A stretch of 64,000 bases of DNA, from contig DASZWD010000020.1 in NCBI GenBank assembly GCA_035546775.1, positions 1-64,000 of the forward strand, written 5' to 3'. This DNA comes from Acidimicrobiales bacterium. GTDB taxonomy: Bacteria; Actinomycetota; Acidimicrobiia; Acidimicrobiales; JACCXE01. Positions 3,026 to 9,483 of the stretch are shown here, piece by piece (the stretch's first letter is position 1; each line of letters opens with the position of its first letter). Position numbers and translations under genes: made by a program. The notes beneath the pieces were generated by a model. That model was not told where the DNA came from. It worked only from the letters and a program-made list of their open reading frames with translations, and searched no databases.

Positions 3026-4537
3026 GTGCTTGCCGCAATCCCATCAGCGACGCTGCTCGGCGTCGACGGTCTTCCCGTGCGCGTCGAAGTGCACGTATCG
3101 GTCGGGCTTCCCGGCTTCACCATCGTCGGTCTTCCCGACACGGCGTGTCGCGAGTCGCGCGACCGCGTACGTGCCGCGGTGCTGTCGTCGGGGTTCTCGT
3201 GGCCCCAAAAGCGCATCACCGTCAACCTCGCGCCGTCGGGGCTACGCAAGACGGGCGCGGGCCTCGACCTGGCGATCGCCGTCGGTGTGCTGGCGGCATC
3301 GGGCGACGTTCCCCTCGAAGCGCTCGACGGTATCGGCTTCATCGGCGAGCTCGGCCTCGACGGGCGGGTGCGCCGTGTACCCGGCGTGGTGTGCATGGCG
3401 CCCGCGCTGGCCGGCCCAGTCGTGGTCGTGGCCCACGAAGCGGCCGCCGAAGCCTCGGTCCTGCCCGACCGCCCAGTGCGCAGCGTGGGGCACCTGCGCG
3501 AACTCGTCGACGCATTGCGCGGCGACGCGCCGTGGCCCGATGCGCCGCCCGCTCGGGCAGCGCGCTTCTGCGTGCCCATCCCCGACATGGCCGACATCCG
3601 CGGCCAACAGCTTGGGCGCCACGCCATCGAGGTCGCGGCCGCCGGTGGGCATCACACGTTGCTCCTCGGCCCGCCGGGCGCCGGCAAGACGATGCTGGCG
3701 CGTCGTCTCATCGGGTTGTTGCCGCCCCTCACCACCGAGCAAGCCCTCGAAACCACGCGGGCGCATTCGGCCGCAGGGCTGGAGCTGCCGCCCGAGGGGT
3801 TGATCACCCGCCCACCATTTCGCGCGCCGCACCACAGCGCGTCGACGGCCGGCATCGTCGGAGGCGGCGGGGCGCGTCTGCGGCCGGGCGAGATCAGCTG
3901 CGCCACCGGTGGTGTGCTGTTCATGGACGAACTGGCCGAATTCTCGACGTCCGTGCTCGAAGCGCTGCGCCAGCCGCTCGAAGAGGGCGTCATCCGCGTA
4001 ACGCGCGCCGCAGGCTCGGTCACGTTTCCCGCCCGGTTCTTGTTGATCGCCGCGATGAACCCGTGCCCGTGCGGTGCCGGCGGCGTACTCGACGCCTGCC
4101 GATGCAACGAGCAGGCGTTGACGCGGTATCAGCGTCGCCTGTCGGGGCCGCTGATCGATCGATTCGACATTCGCTTGGCGATTCACCGCCCAGAGCCCAA
4201 ACAGCTGATCGCCGACGAGAAAGGTGAACCCACCGCGAGCGTTGCGGCACGCGTGGCCGCGGTGCGGGCGTTGGCGTACGCCCGCAGCGGCGGCACCAAC
4301 GCGGAGTTGACCGACGACGGCCTGGCGCGATTCGCCGCGCTGCACCCCGATGCCAAGCGACTCCTCGAGTTCCGCCTACGCGCCGGTTCCCTCAGCGCCC
4401 GCGGTCTCACGCGCATTCGGCGCGTGGCGCGCACGCTGGCCGACCTCGACGGTCGCGAGGGCCAACTCAACGAGGAAGACGTCGCCACGGCGCTCGAAAT
4501 GCGCCATGACTTCACCGAACTGCGGTCGCTGTCATGA
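3026..4537 (+). CDS. comM: ComM/YifB-family AAA+ ATPase (Mg-chelatase-like)
   Basis: A 503-residue YifB/ComM protein. The order is an N-terminal Lon-protease-like domain without obvious catalytic residues, a Walker A (GPPGAGKT) near residue 215, a chelatase-type insert with FRAPHHS, a Walker B (GGVLFMDEL), MNPCPCG, and a C-terminal Mg-chelatase domain with RxxR. In naturally competent bacteria ComM is a branch-migration helicase that integrates imported DNA. The GTG start follows GAGGAG about 6 nt upstream. The stop overlaps the dprA start by 4 nt (ATGA), making a competence/recombination pair. Older annotations call this family a Mg-chelatase subunit; nothing here supports chlorophyll synthesis. 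Confidence 0.93.
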   Translation: MLAAIPSATLLGVDGLPVRVEVHVSVGLPGFTIVGLPDTACRESRDRVRAAVLSSGFSWPQKRITVNLAPSGLRKTGAGLDLAIAVGVLAASGDVPLEALDGIGFIGELGLDGRVRRVPGVVCMAPALAGPVVVVAHEAAAEASVLPDRPVRSVGHLRELVDALRGDAPWPDAPPARAARFCVPIPDMADIRGQQLGRHAIEVAAAGGHHTLLLGPPGAGKTMLARRLIGLLPPLTTEQALETTRAHSAAGLELPPEGLITRPPFRAPHHSASTAGIVGGGGARLRPGEISCATGGVLFMDELAEFSTSVLEALRQPLEEGVIRVTRAAGSVTFPARFLLIAAMNPCPCGAGGVLDACRCNEQALTRYQRRLSGPLIDRFDIRLAIHRPEPKQLIADEKGEPTASVAARVAAVRALAYARSGGTNAELTDDGLARFAALHPDAKRLLEFRLRAGSLSARGLTRIRRVARTLADLDGREGQLNEEDVATALEMRHDFTELRSLS

Positions 4538-5409
4538 GCGACGACGTGTGGTCGCGCGATGACCCGCGGTTGCCCGGCGCACTGGCCGCCGATCCCGATC
4601 CACCGCAGCAGTTGTACGTGCGCGGCGACCCCTCCGCCCTCGAGCTGCGGCGCGTCGCCATCGTCGGCACCCGCAACTGCACGGCGTACGGGCGCACGTT
4701 CGCGCGCCGTCTCGGCACGGAGTTGGCCGAGGCCGGTGTGGCCGTCGTGTCAGGGTTGGCCATCGGCATCGACGGCGCCGCGCACGAAGGTGTGCTCGAC
4801 GCGCGGGGTGTCCCCATCGGCGTCGTTGCCACCGGCCTCGACGTCGTCTATCCGCGTCGCCATCGTTCGTTGTGGGACCGCGTCGCCCGCAGCGGCCTAC
4901 TCGTGTCCGAAGAACCACCGCACACGCGGCCAACGCAGTGGGGCTTCCCGCGCCGCAACCGCATCATCGCCGCGCTCTCCGAAATAGTCGTGGTCGTCGA
5001 GTCGTCGGCAAAGGGGGGTTCGATGCACACCGTCGACGCCGCGCTGGCGCGGGGCATCAACGTGATGGCGGTGCCGGGCCCGGTGGGTGCGGTCACCTCC
5101 GACGGGACGAACCGCCTGCTCGTCGACGGCGTACCGCCCGTGACGTGTACCGACGACGTCCTGCTGGCGCTCGGACTCGAGACCTCACGCCGCTCATTCG
5201 AGTTGCCCGCGCCGCGCCGGAGTCGGCTGTCGGCGCGGGCGCGCGCGGTGCTCGACGTCCTCGACTTCGTGCCGATGCCGACCGATGCCCTGATCGAGGC
5301 TTCGGGGTTCACCCGTGGTGAGGTGCTGGTCGCGCTGCAGGAACTGGCGGCGGCGCGCCAAGCCGAAGGTGGGGGAGGGTGGTGGCACCGCATGCCGACG
5401 CGCCGGTAA
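4534..5409 (+). CDS. dprA: DNA-processing protein DprA
   Basis: A 291-residue DprA/Smf protein that loads RecA on incoming single-stranded DNA. The Rossmann-like core shows VAIVGTRNCTAYG, SGLAIGIDGAAHEG, YPRRH, PRRNRIIAALS, and the ESSAKGGSMHT pattern of the family. A C-terminal winged-helix-like segment (about residues 228-285) follows. The usual N-terminal SAM-like domain is short or absent. It is coupled to comM through ATGA. Together with comM it indicates that the lineage keeps DNA-uptake processing genes, though no uptake machinery is in the window. Confidence 0.94.
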   Translation: MSDDVWSRDDPRLPGALAADPDPPQQLYVRGDPSALELRRVAIVGTRNCTAYGRTFARRLGTELAEAGVAVVSGLAIGIDGAAHEGVLDARGVPIGVVATGLDVVYPRRHRSLWDRVARSGLLVSEEPPHTRPTQWGFPRRNRIIAALSEIVVVVESSAKGGSMHTVDAALARGINVMAVPGPVGAVTSDGTNRLLVDGVPPVTCTDDVLLALGLETSRRSFELPAPRRSRLSARARAVLDVLDFVPMPTDALIEASGFTRGEVLVALQELAAARQAEGGGGWWHRMPTRR

Positions 5410-5493
5410 TTGCCTCTTTCGGCGGCCGGGAGTGATCGCTACGTTCGGCCAACCGCTTCCCCCTCGGTCTTCCCGTGACCAAGGAGCATGCCC

Positions 5494-7263
5494 GTGCGCC
5501 GCTTTGCTGCGGCGCTGGCGATGGCTGCGGCCATCGCCGTCCTCGCTGGGTTCGCGCCCCCAGCCTCCGCCGCGCCCGTCACGTATGTGGCACCGGTCAG
5601 CGGCCCTGTAACCGATCCCTTCCGCCCTCCGTCGACGCAATACGGCGCCGGCAACCGCGGCCTCGAATACAAGACCAACCCCGGCGACGGCGCCCGCGCG
5701 TCGGCCCCCGGTCGCGTCACCTTCGCCGGCCAGGTCGGCGGACAGCTGCACGTCGTCATCCAACACAGCGACGGCGTGCGTACCAGCTACTCGTTCCTGC
5801 GCTCGATCACGGTGCGGGTCGGTCAGGTGCTGCGCCAAGGCGACGCGCTCGGCACGACCAACGACACGTTTCATTTCGGCGCGCGTATCGGCGACGCCTA
5901 CGTCGACCCTGCGATCTTGATCGCCAGCGGCCCGGCGCGCGTGCATCTCGTACCGGACGGCGAGTTCAGCGAACAAGGCGCCCATCGCGACGGGTGGGCG
6001 CTGGCACAGTCCGTCGTCGACCACTTCGGCGCCGTCAGCGCCAGCGCCTACGACTGGATGAAGCCCGGCGTCGCGGTGGGATCCACGACCGTCACGCAGA
6101 TGGCCGACGCGCTCGAGAGCGTGGGGCGCGCCGCCGTCGCCGCAGCCGGCTCCGCGTCGGGCTCGGCGCGCGACGCGCTGGCGCGCTTCGGCCATCAAAT
6201 CGTCGCCGTTGCCGGCCAGGTCCGCGCCGGGACGTTCGATCTGATGCACGACTCGGCGCAACCTCTCATCGGTCTCCTCGACCGAGTCGTGAACCTCGGA
6301 GAGTGGGCCGGACCCTTCGCCGCGCTCGCCGCCGCGCTCGCCGACATCATCGAGGCGTGGGCGCAGCCGTGCACGCCTACCGACGTCGACCCGCCCCCGA
6401 TCGTCGCGCCGCAGAACCGGATCGCGGTGTTCGTCGCCGGGCTGGGCTCGCACTCGAGTGGTCCCCACGCGCCCGAGAACCTGTCGCGCGAGCTGGACTC
6501 GACTGCACTGGGCTACTGGCCGCAGAACGTCTACGACTTCTCGTACCGCGGCGGTCGCGACCCGGCGCCGTACAAGCCGCGTGACACGACGCAGCCGCTG
6601 GAGAACGACGCCCGTCACCTGCGCGACCTGCTCGACCAGATCGCGAAAGACCACCCCGGGGCACAGGTCGATCTCATCGCCCACAGCCAAGGCGGGCTGA
6701 TCGTGCGTGAAGCCCTGGCACACGACTACGACGGGCCCGGCCACGAAATGCCCACGATCGACCACGTGGTAACGCTGGCGACGCCGCACCACGGCGCCGA
6801 TGGCGCCACGGCTGCCGCCTGGATGCGGTGGTCGGTCGAGGGTCGGGCCATTCGGCGACTGGCGCACCATGGCTTTAAAGGGTTCGACGTCACCGGACCG
6901 GGCGTGGCCGAGCTTTCGGAAACATCGGACTTCATCAAGCGGATCAACGCCCGGCCGTTGCGCGACGACGTGCAGTACACGTCGATCGCGTCGGCGGCGG
7001 ACCTCACCGTGCCAGCGGTGCGGGCGCGGTTGGCGAACGCGACCAACGTCATTGTGGACGCCCGGCCGTCGTCGCCCGTCACCGGCAGTCACAGCAGCAT
7101 CAAGCAGTCGCCGGCGGCGCGGCGCGAAGTCGAACTCGCAATCGCCGATCGCCCGCCGACGTGTCAGCCCGCCGTCGCCACGGCGACTCGCGCCTTTACC
7201 GGCGCCGCCATTGCCACCGGCGAAGACATTGCCGGCTTCGGCGCCAGCGGAATCGTCCCGTGA
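5494..7263 (+). CDS. Secreted degenerate LytM/M23-like domain fused to lipase-like alpha/beta hydrolase
   Basis: A 589-residue exported protein with a Sec signal peptide (RRFAAALAMAAAIAVLAGFAPPASA). Residues about 27-150 follow the LytM/M23 beta-sheet pattern (PVSGPVTDPF, ASAPGRVTFAG, GQVLRQGDALG), but the zinc ligands are largely lost: the HxGxD site reads NRGLE and the HxH site reads FHF. After a helical linker, residues about 310-500 form an alpha/beta hydrolase with nucleophile Ser398 in AHSQGG and a TPHHGAD segment typical of triacylglycerol-lipase/PGAP1-like esterases. GTG 5494 is preferred because AAGGAG lies 7 nt upstream; ATG 5488 is only 1 nt from it. The fusion suggests an envelope-bound esterase. 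Substrate unknown. Confidence 0.8.
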   Translation: MRRFAAALAMAAAIAVLAGFAPPASAAPVTYVAPVSGPVTDPFRPPSTQYGAGNRGLEYKTNPGDGARASAPGRVTFAGQVGGQLHVVIQHSDGVRTSYSFLRSITVRVGQVLRQGDALGTTNDTFHFGARIGDAYVDPAILIASGPARVHLVPDGEFSEQGAHRDGWALAQSVVDHFGAVSASAYDWMKPGVAVGSTTVTQMADALESVGRAAVAAAGSASGSARDALARFGHQIVAVAGQVRAGTFDLMHDSAQPLIGLLDRVVNLGEWAGPFAALAAALADIIEAWAQPCTPTDVDPPPIVAPQNRIAVFVAGLGSHSSGPHAPENLSRELDSTALGYWPQNVYDFSYRGGRDPAPYKPRDTTQPLENDARHLRDLLDQIAKDHPGAQVDLIAHSQGGLIVREALAHDYDGPGHEMPTIDHVVTLATPHHGADGATAAAWMRWSVEGRAIRRLAHHGFKGFDVTGPGVAELSETSDFIKRINARPLRDDVQYTSIASAADLTVPAVRARLANATNVIVDARPSSPVTGSHSSIKQSPAARREVELAIADRPPTCQPAVATATRAFTGAAIATGEDIAGFGASGIVP

Positions 7264-7277
7264 AGAAAGGACCCGCC

Positions 7278-8429
7278 ATGCGTCTCGTGCGCACTATTGC
7301 GATCGGCATCACGTTGGTGTTCGTCGCGCTCGTCACCGCCGCGTTCGCCCTGCAACGGTCGGCACCGCGGCCACGGGTGCGCCCGGTGGTCGCGGCGCGC
7401 AGCATTCATCCCGCCGTCGAAGAGCGCTGGCGCGTATCGATCGACGGCGACGTCGTCGGTCTGCCCGCCACCGACCAAGCCGGGGTCGTCGTCACCGCGG
7501 GCGAGTCGCAGGTGCTCGCCGTGTCTCGCGACGGCGTGGTCGACTGGCGCGCCGCGCTTCCGGGTGCGTTGGCGGACGCACCACGCCTCGACGGCGATGC
7601 AGTGTTCGTAGCGGCCGCGCGTGCTGTGGCCGCGTTCGCCCGTTCCGACGGTCGCCCGTTGTGGTCGGTGGCGACGACGGCGAGCGACGACGAGAACCGG
7701 GCCAACCGACCGGCGGTCGTCGGCGACACCGTGGTGGTCACGACTGCTGATGGGCTTGCACTCGGCCTCGACCGCTCGACGGGCGCGGAACGGTGGCGCA
7801 CGGTGCTGCCGACGGCGATCACCTCCGAACCGGCTGCCGGCGCGACCGCCGGCGGCGACCCCGTGGTGGTCGTCGTCGGCGTCGGCGAGTGGTGGGGGAT
7901 CGATCCGATCACGGGCTCGACTCTGTGGAGCGGCGACCTGGGGGTGTACGGCACGTCGTCACCGGTCGTGTATCCCGAGGGCCTCGACTTGGTCGCCGCG
8001 GTTGCCTCGAACGAGCGAATGGTCGCGGTCGACGCTCACACGGGTACGCCGCGATGGTCGTCGCCCGCCGAACAGAGCGAGTTGTTCCAGGTGCCGGTCA
8101 TCGCGGACAACGGCAACGAACTGCTCGTCCCCGACCACTGGGGTCGCCTGCGCGCCTATAGCCCTGACGACGGCCACCGCACGTGGGCGGTGAAAGGGGC
8201 TGACACCGCCGCCGAATTCGGCGCACCGGTGTGGCTGTCCGACCAATTCGTGGCCTTGCCGCTCGACGGCCACGGCCCGCGGCTGGCGTCGCCCCGCGGC
8301 GCGTTCCGCCTGCGGCCGCCCGCTGACGGTTGGGGGGTCGCCGACCTGCCGGGGGCGGGGCTCGTGGTGACGACGGCCGGCGCGAAAGGCCCGAACTACG
8401 TGCTGCTTTATTCGGTCCGCTACCATTGA
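7278..8429 (+). CDS. Secreted or membrane-anchored PQQ-like beta-propeller protein
   Basis: A 383-residue protein with an uncleaved anchor or signal peptide (residues about 5-27), then repeated blades of the PQQ/BamB type: [63 protein letters not shown]. The repeated G-x-x-x-W motif is the blade signature. No quinoprotein dehydrogenase cofactor residues stand out, so a scaffold role is likelier than catalysis. ATG 7278 has AAAGGA 8 nt upstream and lies 14 nt after the hydrolase stop, so the two exported proteins probably share a transcript. Confidence 0.82.
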
Positions 8430-8559
8430 AGGCCGCTCAATCGTTGGGCGTATCCATAAACCATCACCTGCCGCACGCGCACATTCGGTCACCGACGGTC
8501 AACACGATTGGCTCGGTGCGACGCCTGCGGATCGTCAACCGAACAAGGAGCACACAAAC
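8430..8559 (+). promoter_or_regulatory. rpsB upstream/leader region
   Basis: This 130-nt non-coding stretch must hold the rpsB-tsf promoter. A CACCGA/TCGGTG inverted repeat and an AAGGAG ribosome-binding site 9 nt before the GTG are visible. Ribosomal protein S2 autoregulation is known elsewhere, but no recognised leader motif could be identified here. Confidence 0.3.
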
Positions 8560-9483
8560 GTGGCTGTTGTCACCATGAAGCAACTGCTGGAGGCCGGAGT
8601 CCACTTCGGTCACCAGACCCGGCGCTGGAACCCGAAGATGAAGCGGTTCATCCTCGGCGAGCGCAACGGCATCTACCTGATCGACCTCAACCAGACGCTC
8701 GAGCGCACGGCGGTCGCCTACGAGTTCGTGCGTGACCTCGTGTCGGAGAACGGCACGATCCTCTTCGTCGGCACCAAGAAGCAGACGCAGGACCCCGTCG
8801 CCCGCTACGCCTCGGAATGCGGCATGCCCTACATCAACGAGCGCTGGCTCGGCGGCATGCTCACCAACTTCCAGACGATCCTGGCCCGGGTCAAGAAGAT
8901 GCAGGACTACGAGCGCATGCTCGCGGCCGGCGACTTCGACAACATGCCGAAGAAGGAAGCTCTCATCCTGCGCCGTGAGCTCGTCAAGCTGCAGCGCAAC
9001 CTCGGCGGCATCCGTGGCCTTTCCCGGCTCCCCGACGCCATCTTCGTCATCGACACGAAGAAGGAGCACCTCGCCGTCACCGAGGCCAACAAGCTCAAGT
9101 TGCCGGTTGTCGCCGTGGTCGACACCAACTGCGACCCCGACGTCATCCAGTACGTCATCCCCGGCAACGACGACGCCATCCGCGCCGGCAACCTGCTGTG
9201 CCGCGTGATCGCCGAGGCCGTCGAGGAAGGCCGCTTCATCGCCAGCCGCCGCGCCCGCGCCGCCGCCGATGCGGCCGGCCCCTCCGTGGTCGAGCGCAGC
9301 GAAGAAGAAGAGGCTCGGCGCGCGCAGCAGCAGGCCGAAGCCCGTCGCCAGGCGGCTCTCCAGGCCCAGGAGCGCGAGGCCCGCCTCGCCGCGCAAACGG
9401 CGCAGCCCGACGCGGCGCCGGCCGCGGCGCCCACCGAATCCGAAGCAGACGTGAACGCAGACAAAGGACCCGATCCCTCGTAA
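8560..9483 (+). CDS. rpsB: 30S ribosomal protein S2 with charged C-terminal tail
   Basis: A 307-residue S2 protein of the small ribosomal subunit. The core begins [24 protein letters not shown] and includes [10 protein letters not shown] and [13 protein letters not shown]2 is usually about 230-260 residues; here roughly 60 extra residues (about 245-307) form a Glu/Arg/Ala/Gln-rich, probably helical tail followed by an Ala/Pro-rich end. Extended S2 tails are common in actinobacteria. Start GTG 8560 has AAGGAG upstream. The TAA stop overlaps the tsf ATG (TAATG). Confidence 0.97.

Follow-up and report, generated by a model that had tools for sequence, protein, structure and literature searches.

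The question raised by this locus is what a LytM domain with a seemingly broken metal site does on the same chain as a lipase-like hydrolase, in a gene that lies close to rpsB. The window, i.e., the whole stretch of DNA analysed (64,000 nucleotides; Acidimicrobiales bacterium, assembly GCA_035546775.1, contig DASZWD010000020.1, positions 1 to 64,000 of the forward strand), carries the fusion gene as a single, intact and complete frame (ORF reading) in a housekeeping run with the order comM-like gene, dprA (4534-5409), fusion gene, PQQ/BamB-like propeller gene, rpsB, tsf (Table 1); dprA, the propeller gene and rpsB were named by Pfam, comM and tsf by eye from their frames. GTG 5494 is the likelier start, since the AAGGAG element stands 7 bases upstream of it, against a spacing of just 1 base for ATG 5488; residues of the fusion protein were counted from ATG 5488. 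The propeller gene is probably co-transcribed with the fusion gene; in three partly overlapping sets, 6/63, 6/27 and 4/22 fused rows have a propeller match on the same stretch as the fusion. The fusion protein is the sole M23 match above the family cut-off in its own genome, a second M23 match (L088) being weak and below the cut-off; one Amidase_3 and four NlpC/P60 matches of this genome are candidate partners. The N-terminal TACKGD of its only Amidase_3 protein (L258) resembles a lipobox, i.e., a lipoprotein signal.

Table 1: Features of the fusion locus; positions are those of the window, residues are counted from ATG 5488.
Feature	Position	Strand	Basis
LytM-hydrolase fusion gene	5494..7263	+	ORF, Pfam, orthologues; alternative ATG start 5488
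RBS-like AAGGAG	5481..5486	+	direct sequence reading; 7 bases ahead of GTG 5494
Sec-type signal peptide (putative)	5494..5571	+	by eye: hydrophobic stretch, then A-S-A ahead of LytM; model helix 3-19
Degenerate M23/LytM domain, residues 31-149	5578..5934	+	Pfam, model, structure matches, MepM alignment
Helical, poorly conserved linker, residues 151-292	5938..6363	+	model helices; 151-199 pLDDT <50; entropy 2.08
Alpha/beta hydrolase, putative triad S400-D505-H535, flanking conserved C295 and C559	6370..7164	+	Pfam, structure matches, conservation
PQQ/BamB-like beta-propeller gene	7278..8429	+	Pfam PQQ_2 E 2.8e-28; starts 14 bases past fusion stop
rpsB, conserved neighbour	8560..9483	+	Pfam Ribosomal_S2 E 1.2e-94; synteny

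With its putative signal peptide the fusion protein is probably secreted. Peptidase_M23 (PF01551) was matched at residues 56-140 (E 5e-12; 46.2 bits, cut-off 28.7), and the AlphaFold2 model (60 sequences; mean pLDDT 81.8) has a beta-sheet core at this place, which puts the domain in the M23/LytM fold; pLDDT of the LytM part is mostly >90 (ten-residue blocks 85-98 over residues 31-140). Structure matches (VIA-align) of residues 31-148: Csd3, Z 20.2, 1.7 A, 114 aligned; StM23, Z 19.4; DipM, Z 19.3; EnvC, Z 18.1-18.7. A LytM-like sheet in residues 27-150, on which the earlier note had staked its reading of the domain, is thus present with confidence (AlphaFold model, Z 18-20). No LysM or SH3 family was found by Pfam in the fusion protein at E 1.

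Alpha/beta-hydrolase families were matched over about residues 340-510: DUF7379 (38.8 bits), Lipase_2 (PF01674; 28.9 bits, cut-off 20.3), Palm_thioest and DUF676 above their cut-offs, PGAP1 slightly under it (24.0 vs 24.3). The model of this region has pLDDT of 71-97 (ten-residue blocks over residues 311-560), and residues 306-561 were superimposed (VIA-align) on Streptomyces lipase 5h6b (Z 19.8, 3.6 A, 217 aligned), PlaB (Z 19.4), BlEst2 (Z 18.7) and CALB 1tca (Z 18.4); identity to the solved hydrolases 5h6b, BlEst2 and 1tca is 16-24%. The motif AHSQGG contains the conserved S400 as a nucleophile of GxSxG type and, judged by motif and conservation, the triad S400-D505-H535 is intact on a serine lipase/esterase fold. 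Conservation of the triad: fused order rows, S 26/27, D 27/27, H 26/27 (the remainder are gaps); class rows, S, D and H each 16/16; phylum rows, S 6/6, D 4/6, H 4/6 (the misses are segments cut short, L198 and L207). C295 and C559 are present in 27/27 order rows and in 13/16 and 15/16 class rows, respectively; the pair fits a disulphide closing the exported domain. The GxSxG-type nucleophile, Asp and His are common to the fusion protein and the hydrolases of the Lipase_2, DUF676, PGAP1 and DUF7379 families; the N-terminal LytM domain and the two conserved flanking cysteines set it apart from them. Family matches in an alignment of 60 rows, the window protein included (A2; relatives partly gathered by LytM motifs), are divided as well (DUF7379 54, DUF676 47, PGAP1 38, Palm_thioest 35, Tle3 35, Lipase_2 13, the last at E 0.001) and do not point to one substrate; the safe guess is an ester or acyl lipid. 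Pfam M23 is matched by every row of A2 at E 0.001 (60/60), as expected for rows gathered as relatives, and the 60/60 counts at N56 and S400 in A2 are biased by the motif-based gathering; row counts of the order, class and phylum, used here, are less biased than those of A2 and of the named loci described below.

The metal site of the LytM domain was mapped by alignment to MepM, NlpD and EnvC of E. coli K-12. MepM H314, D318, H362, H393 and H395 align to N56, E60, F103, T127 and H129: one of three zinc ligands is kept (H129), two are changed (H-to-N at N56, D-to-E at E60), and both catalytic His are replaced (F103 and T127). The signature of active M23 metallopeptidases, HxxxD and HxH plus a catalytic His (as described in the consulted part of PMC8416486), is absent; as far as sequence can tell, the domain is no longer a peptidase, and a LytM domain with a broken metal site places it among the degenerate LytM factors. 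The earlier note held that most zinc ligands are lost, which stands; its detail on FHF does not, for not both His of HxH are gone, T127-F-H129 keeping the second. Its main statement, a degenerate LytM domain fused to an intact lipase-like hydrolase, is borne out by Pfam, the model, the MepM alignment and the conservation of the triad.

What is known of degenerate LytM factors comes mainly from Proteobacteria, where they regulate wall hydrolases (from the consulted sections of PMC8416486 and PMC10336132), and the likeness drawn earlier to EnvC and NlpD proved apt: NlpD (N279, D283, H328, R358, H360) and DipM have the H-to-N change at the first ligand, as here; DipM likewise retains one of three metal ligands, and its dead-site groove docks autolysins, which mutants support (PMC10336132, same sections). 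EnvC has a gap, V324, Y368, S399 and Y401 at the five positions; the first His of HxH is lost in EnvC and NlpD, like T127 of the fusion protein, whereas NlpD and DipM retain His where the latter has F103. R133 aligns to EnvC R405, which is named among the residues involved in amidase activation (PMC10336132, same sections); Arg occurs here in 52/55 order rows (27/27 fused, 25/28 single) and also in relatives whose metal site is intact (class 20/20), so R133 does not single out a regulator. In contrast to NlpD, EnvC and DipM, the fusion protein has no LysM match, carries a C-terminal enzyme, and its gene adjoins rpsB in Actinomycetota; NCBIfam equivalog scores are far from those of orthologues (NlpD, 22.1 bits vs 311; EnvC, 16.2 vs 270; DipM, 36.7 vs 900).

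Distribution in the order: 99 genomes, the own one included, were searched; 63 match the fusion protein and 36 gave no match. Of the other 62 matching genomes, 55 supplied regions (the seven omitted have best E of 1e-4 to 1e-10); L073 and L088 gave no LytM row, which left 55 order rows including that of the window. In L073 the hydrolase adjoins rpsB and is interrupted by the contig end. Both domains form one open frame in 27/55 order rows, and LytM stands without the hydrolase in the other 28; unfused orthologues being as common as fused ones, the hydrolase is dispensable to the role of LytM. rpsB lies on the same stretch in 53/55 rows; of the other two, L051 ends at the contig end, and no rpsB was found within about 2.1 kb downstream in L054. 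Named genomes were scanned with peptide patterns including GNRG and AHS[QL]GG, and the best 80 of 291 candidates gave 79 distinct loci, 63 fused and 16 LytM-only; 63/79 is not a frequency, since the candidates were ranked by likeness to the fused-protein alignment and found through motif patterns. Among the 63 fused loci from these best 80, 43 stop <300 bases short of rpsB and 11 farther away, 2 overlap rpsB as the frames were read and 7 have no rpsB on the stretch. The record titles are mostly Acidimicrobiia, Acidimicrobiales, Microthrix or Actinomycetota, a few just "bacterium"; records titled Bifidobacterium breve (L103, L141, L165), Acidobacteria (L098) and Chloroflexota (L116) carry an Acidimicrobiia-type fusion, and these titles may be wrong. 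One locus (L059, minus strand, 7465-9166) has the fusion as two frames of 447 and 201 residues, a frame error or a broken gene. Chance or a frame error as the origin of the fusion itself was ruled out by the single frame in 27/55 order rows and 63/79 named loci (best 80 of 291).

Distribution beyond the order: in the class survey 324/394 genomes match the profile and in at least 58/394 a single match covers both domains (order, 36; other orders, 22), a lower bound counted by eye (query start <=23, end >=507; two-piece fusions excluded); one of the 58 (G238) has an internal stop. In the phylum survey 228/296 genomes match the LytM profile, many of which matches may be other M23 proteins. Class and phylum loci (59 usable regions) were hand-picked from the top of the match lists, neither being an even draw: 16/20 class and 6/39 phylum loci are fused. 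Four of these six adjoin rpsB (L205, L207, L209, L237) and two lie elsewhere (L198 and L200, no rpsB in the 12 kb fetched); 33/39 phylum loci lack the hydrolase, and several genes (L211-L213, L216-L221, L227) are divergent from rpsB, not upstream and co-directional. Ten plasmid records gave weak matches, all confined to the LytM part of the query. The fusion is thus widespread in the class and, more widely in the phylum, occurs in some genomes from other classes. According to the earlier note a peptidoglycan-tethered esterase would be a new architecture as far as the sequence tells: a limited text search returned no literature on LytM plus lipase in Acidimicrobi or on a LytM-lipase fusion, and the accessible portion of one report, in which six Actinomycetota MAGs are counted with wall-bound lipases, names no LytM fusion (PMC11495043); in genomes, as just described, the fusion is widespread in the class. 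It is neither a one-off nor a new kind of system; it belongs with the degenerate LytM factors, as a conserved variant.

The metal site appears to have been lost in steps. Outside the order the first zinc ligand is His in 20/20 class and 38/39 phylum rows, the exception being L198 with Asn, perhaps a separate loss; inside the order it is Asn in 52/55 (one D, one S, one gap). Position 60 is Asp in 20/20 class and 38/39 phylum rows and E, D, T or A within the order (one gap). Judged from these rows, the H-to-N loss is almost confined to the order; on a tree built without the motif columns 4 H/N changes are needed. Rows that lie, or are presumed to lie, in the rpsB slot number 96 (order, 55; class, 18; phylum, 23; two order rows have no rpsB on the stretch). 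Among them, His was observed at 103 in none and at 127 in two (L044, L207; some gaps at 127), and none retains both catalytic His. L044 is a fused orthologue with His at the first HxH position; its other four site residues are N, E, F and H. Among the single phylum loci away from rpsB, 4/14 have His at 103. With the catalytic His missing in rpsB-slot rows and Asn at the first ligand within the order, catalysis looks lost in rpsB-linked LytM proteins throughout the phylum sample, the order having gone further. M. tuberculosis Rv2891 is a possible member of these rpsB-linked M23 proteins. Rv2891 is listed, in the part of the source consulted, as one of three M23-domain genes (PMC8594824).

The stepwise loss, the catalytic His in rpsB-linked phylum rows and then the first zinc ligand in the order, would suit a LytM half that is a decaying relic on a hydrolase working alone, but this is the least probable of the readings considered: the LytM domain varies less than the hydrolase and thus is not decaying (mean column entropy, bits: A2, LytM 1.35, hydrolase 1.89, linker (160-290) 2.08; A1, 24 rows gathered by whole-protein similarity, 1.21, 1.73 and 1.79, respectively), its identity to the protein of a genus-mate is 74% vs 65% for the hydrolase, and it persists alone in 28/55 order rows. 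In LytM-only genomes the hydrolase was sought elsewhere, and just generic hydrolase matches (near 1e-5 to 1e-6) were found, which points to loss rather than fission. On the LytM tree (113 rows and 114 columns, the overly short L040 omitted) the fused label needs 14 changes, with only 6 starred branches; in the hydrolase tree (48 rows, L039 omitted) the 26 order rows form one clade (99/93), which fits vertical inheritance in the order and is not proof of a single fusion, since the tree contains no unfused hydrolases. Position 88 is His in 41/48 fused vs 9/65 single rows and position 103 is Phe in 38/48 vs 14/65 (113 rows); the link to the fusion is strong in the raw table and comes down, with relatedness counted, to one starred independent pair. 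The pattern at H88 hints that the groove changed together with the fusion, and it also bears on a rebuilt site, in which N56, E60 and H129 would bind metal together with H88 or the near-invariant H93 in an unusual peptidase. Such a site is very unlikely: both catalytic His are absent, the link of H88 rests on one supported independent pair, and H93 is present also in EnvC and NlpD, which are known to be inactive.

Many relatives have kept both domains together next to rpsB, and the dead LytM domain therefore probably aims or controls the enzyme. The reading we prefer, to which we give an even chance, is a secreted lipase or esterase that an inactive LytM domain, serving for docking, positions or controls. 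A serine hydrolase of esters (a lipase, phospholipase or esterase) would be exported by Sec into the wall zone; like EnvC and DipM, the protein would keep the dead groove for docking, and this groove would most likely bind a partner of the wall-growth or division machinery, i.e., a wall hydrolase, less likely a peptidoglycan stem peptide; binding would place or switch the fused hydrolase, which would then cut ester bonds on the outer side of the membrane. The chief alternative to docking is direct binding to peptidoglycan: active LytM folds bind peptidoglycan peptides, and N56, H93 and H129, near-invariant within the order at or near the old site, would agree with a dead site that still holds on to stem peptides or cross-bridges and so fixes the hydrolase to the wall. 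Such tethering is possible, and we regard it as doubtful, for the LytM domain of DipM binds proteins, localisation being ascribed mainly to its LysM domains (PMC10336132, the sections consulted), and LysM and SH3 matches are missing here at E 1. It is unlikely, on our assessment, that regulation comes first, LytM activating an amidase as EnvC, NlpD and DipM do and the hydrolase being an accessory passenger; the substitutions resemble those of NlpD (N279, D283, R358, H360), the genome has one Amidase_3 gene, and LytM stands alone in about half of the order rows, but NlpD keeps H328 where the fusion protein has F103, and the triad, retained in the inspected rows of order and class, indicates that the passenger is itself under selection.

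Under docking as preferred above, LytM may be an in-cis regulator of the lipase, so that cleavage of envelope lipids or wall esters is timed by cell-wall growth; we put this forward only tentatively. Were it true, degenerate LytM regulators would exist outside Proteobacteria as a general class that has gone unrecognised, made up of the phylum's rpsB-linked LytM proteins. A conserved rpsB-linked family of broken LytM proteins in Actinomycetota, together with its lipase-like fusion, offers a direct test of a dead LytM domain with a built-in client. The hosts of the fusion are little-studied actinobacteria of lineages that include the sludge filament Candidatus Microthrix (record titles L096, L105, L128), and the fusion suggests that in the lineages bearing it wall growth is linked to lipid or ester turnover.
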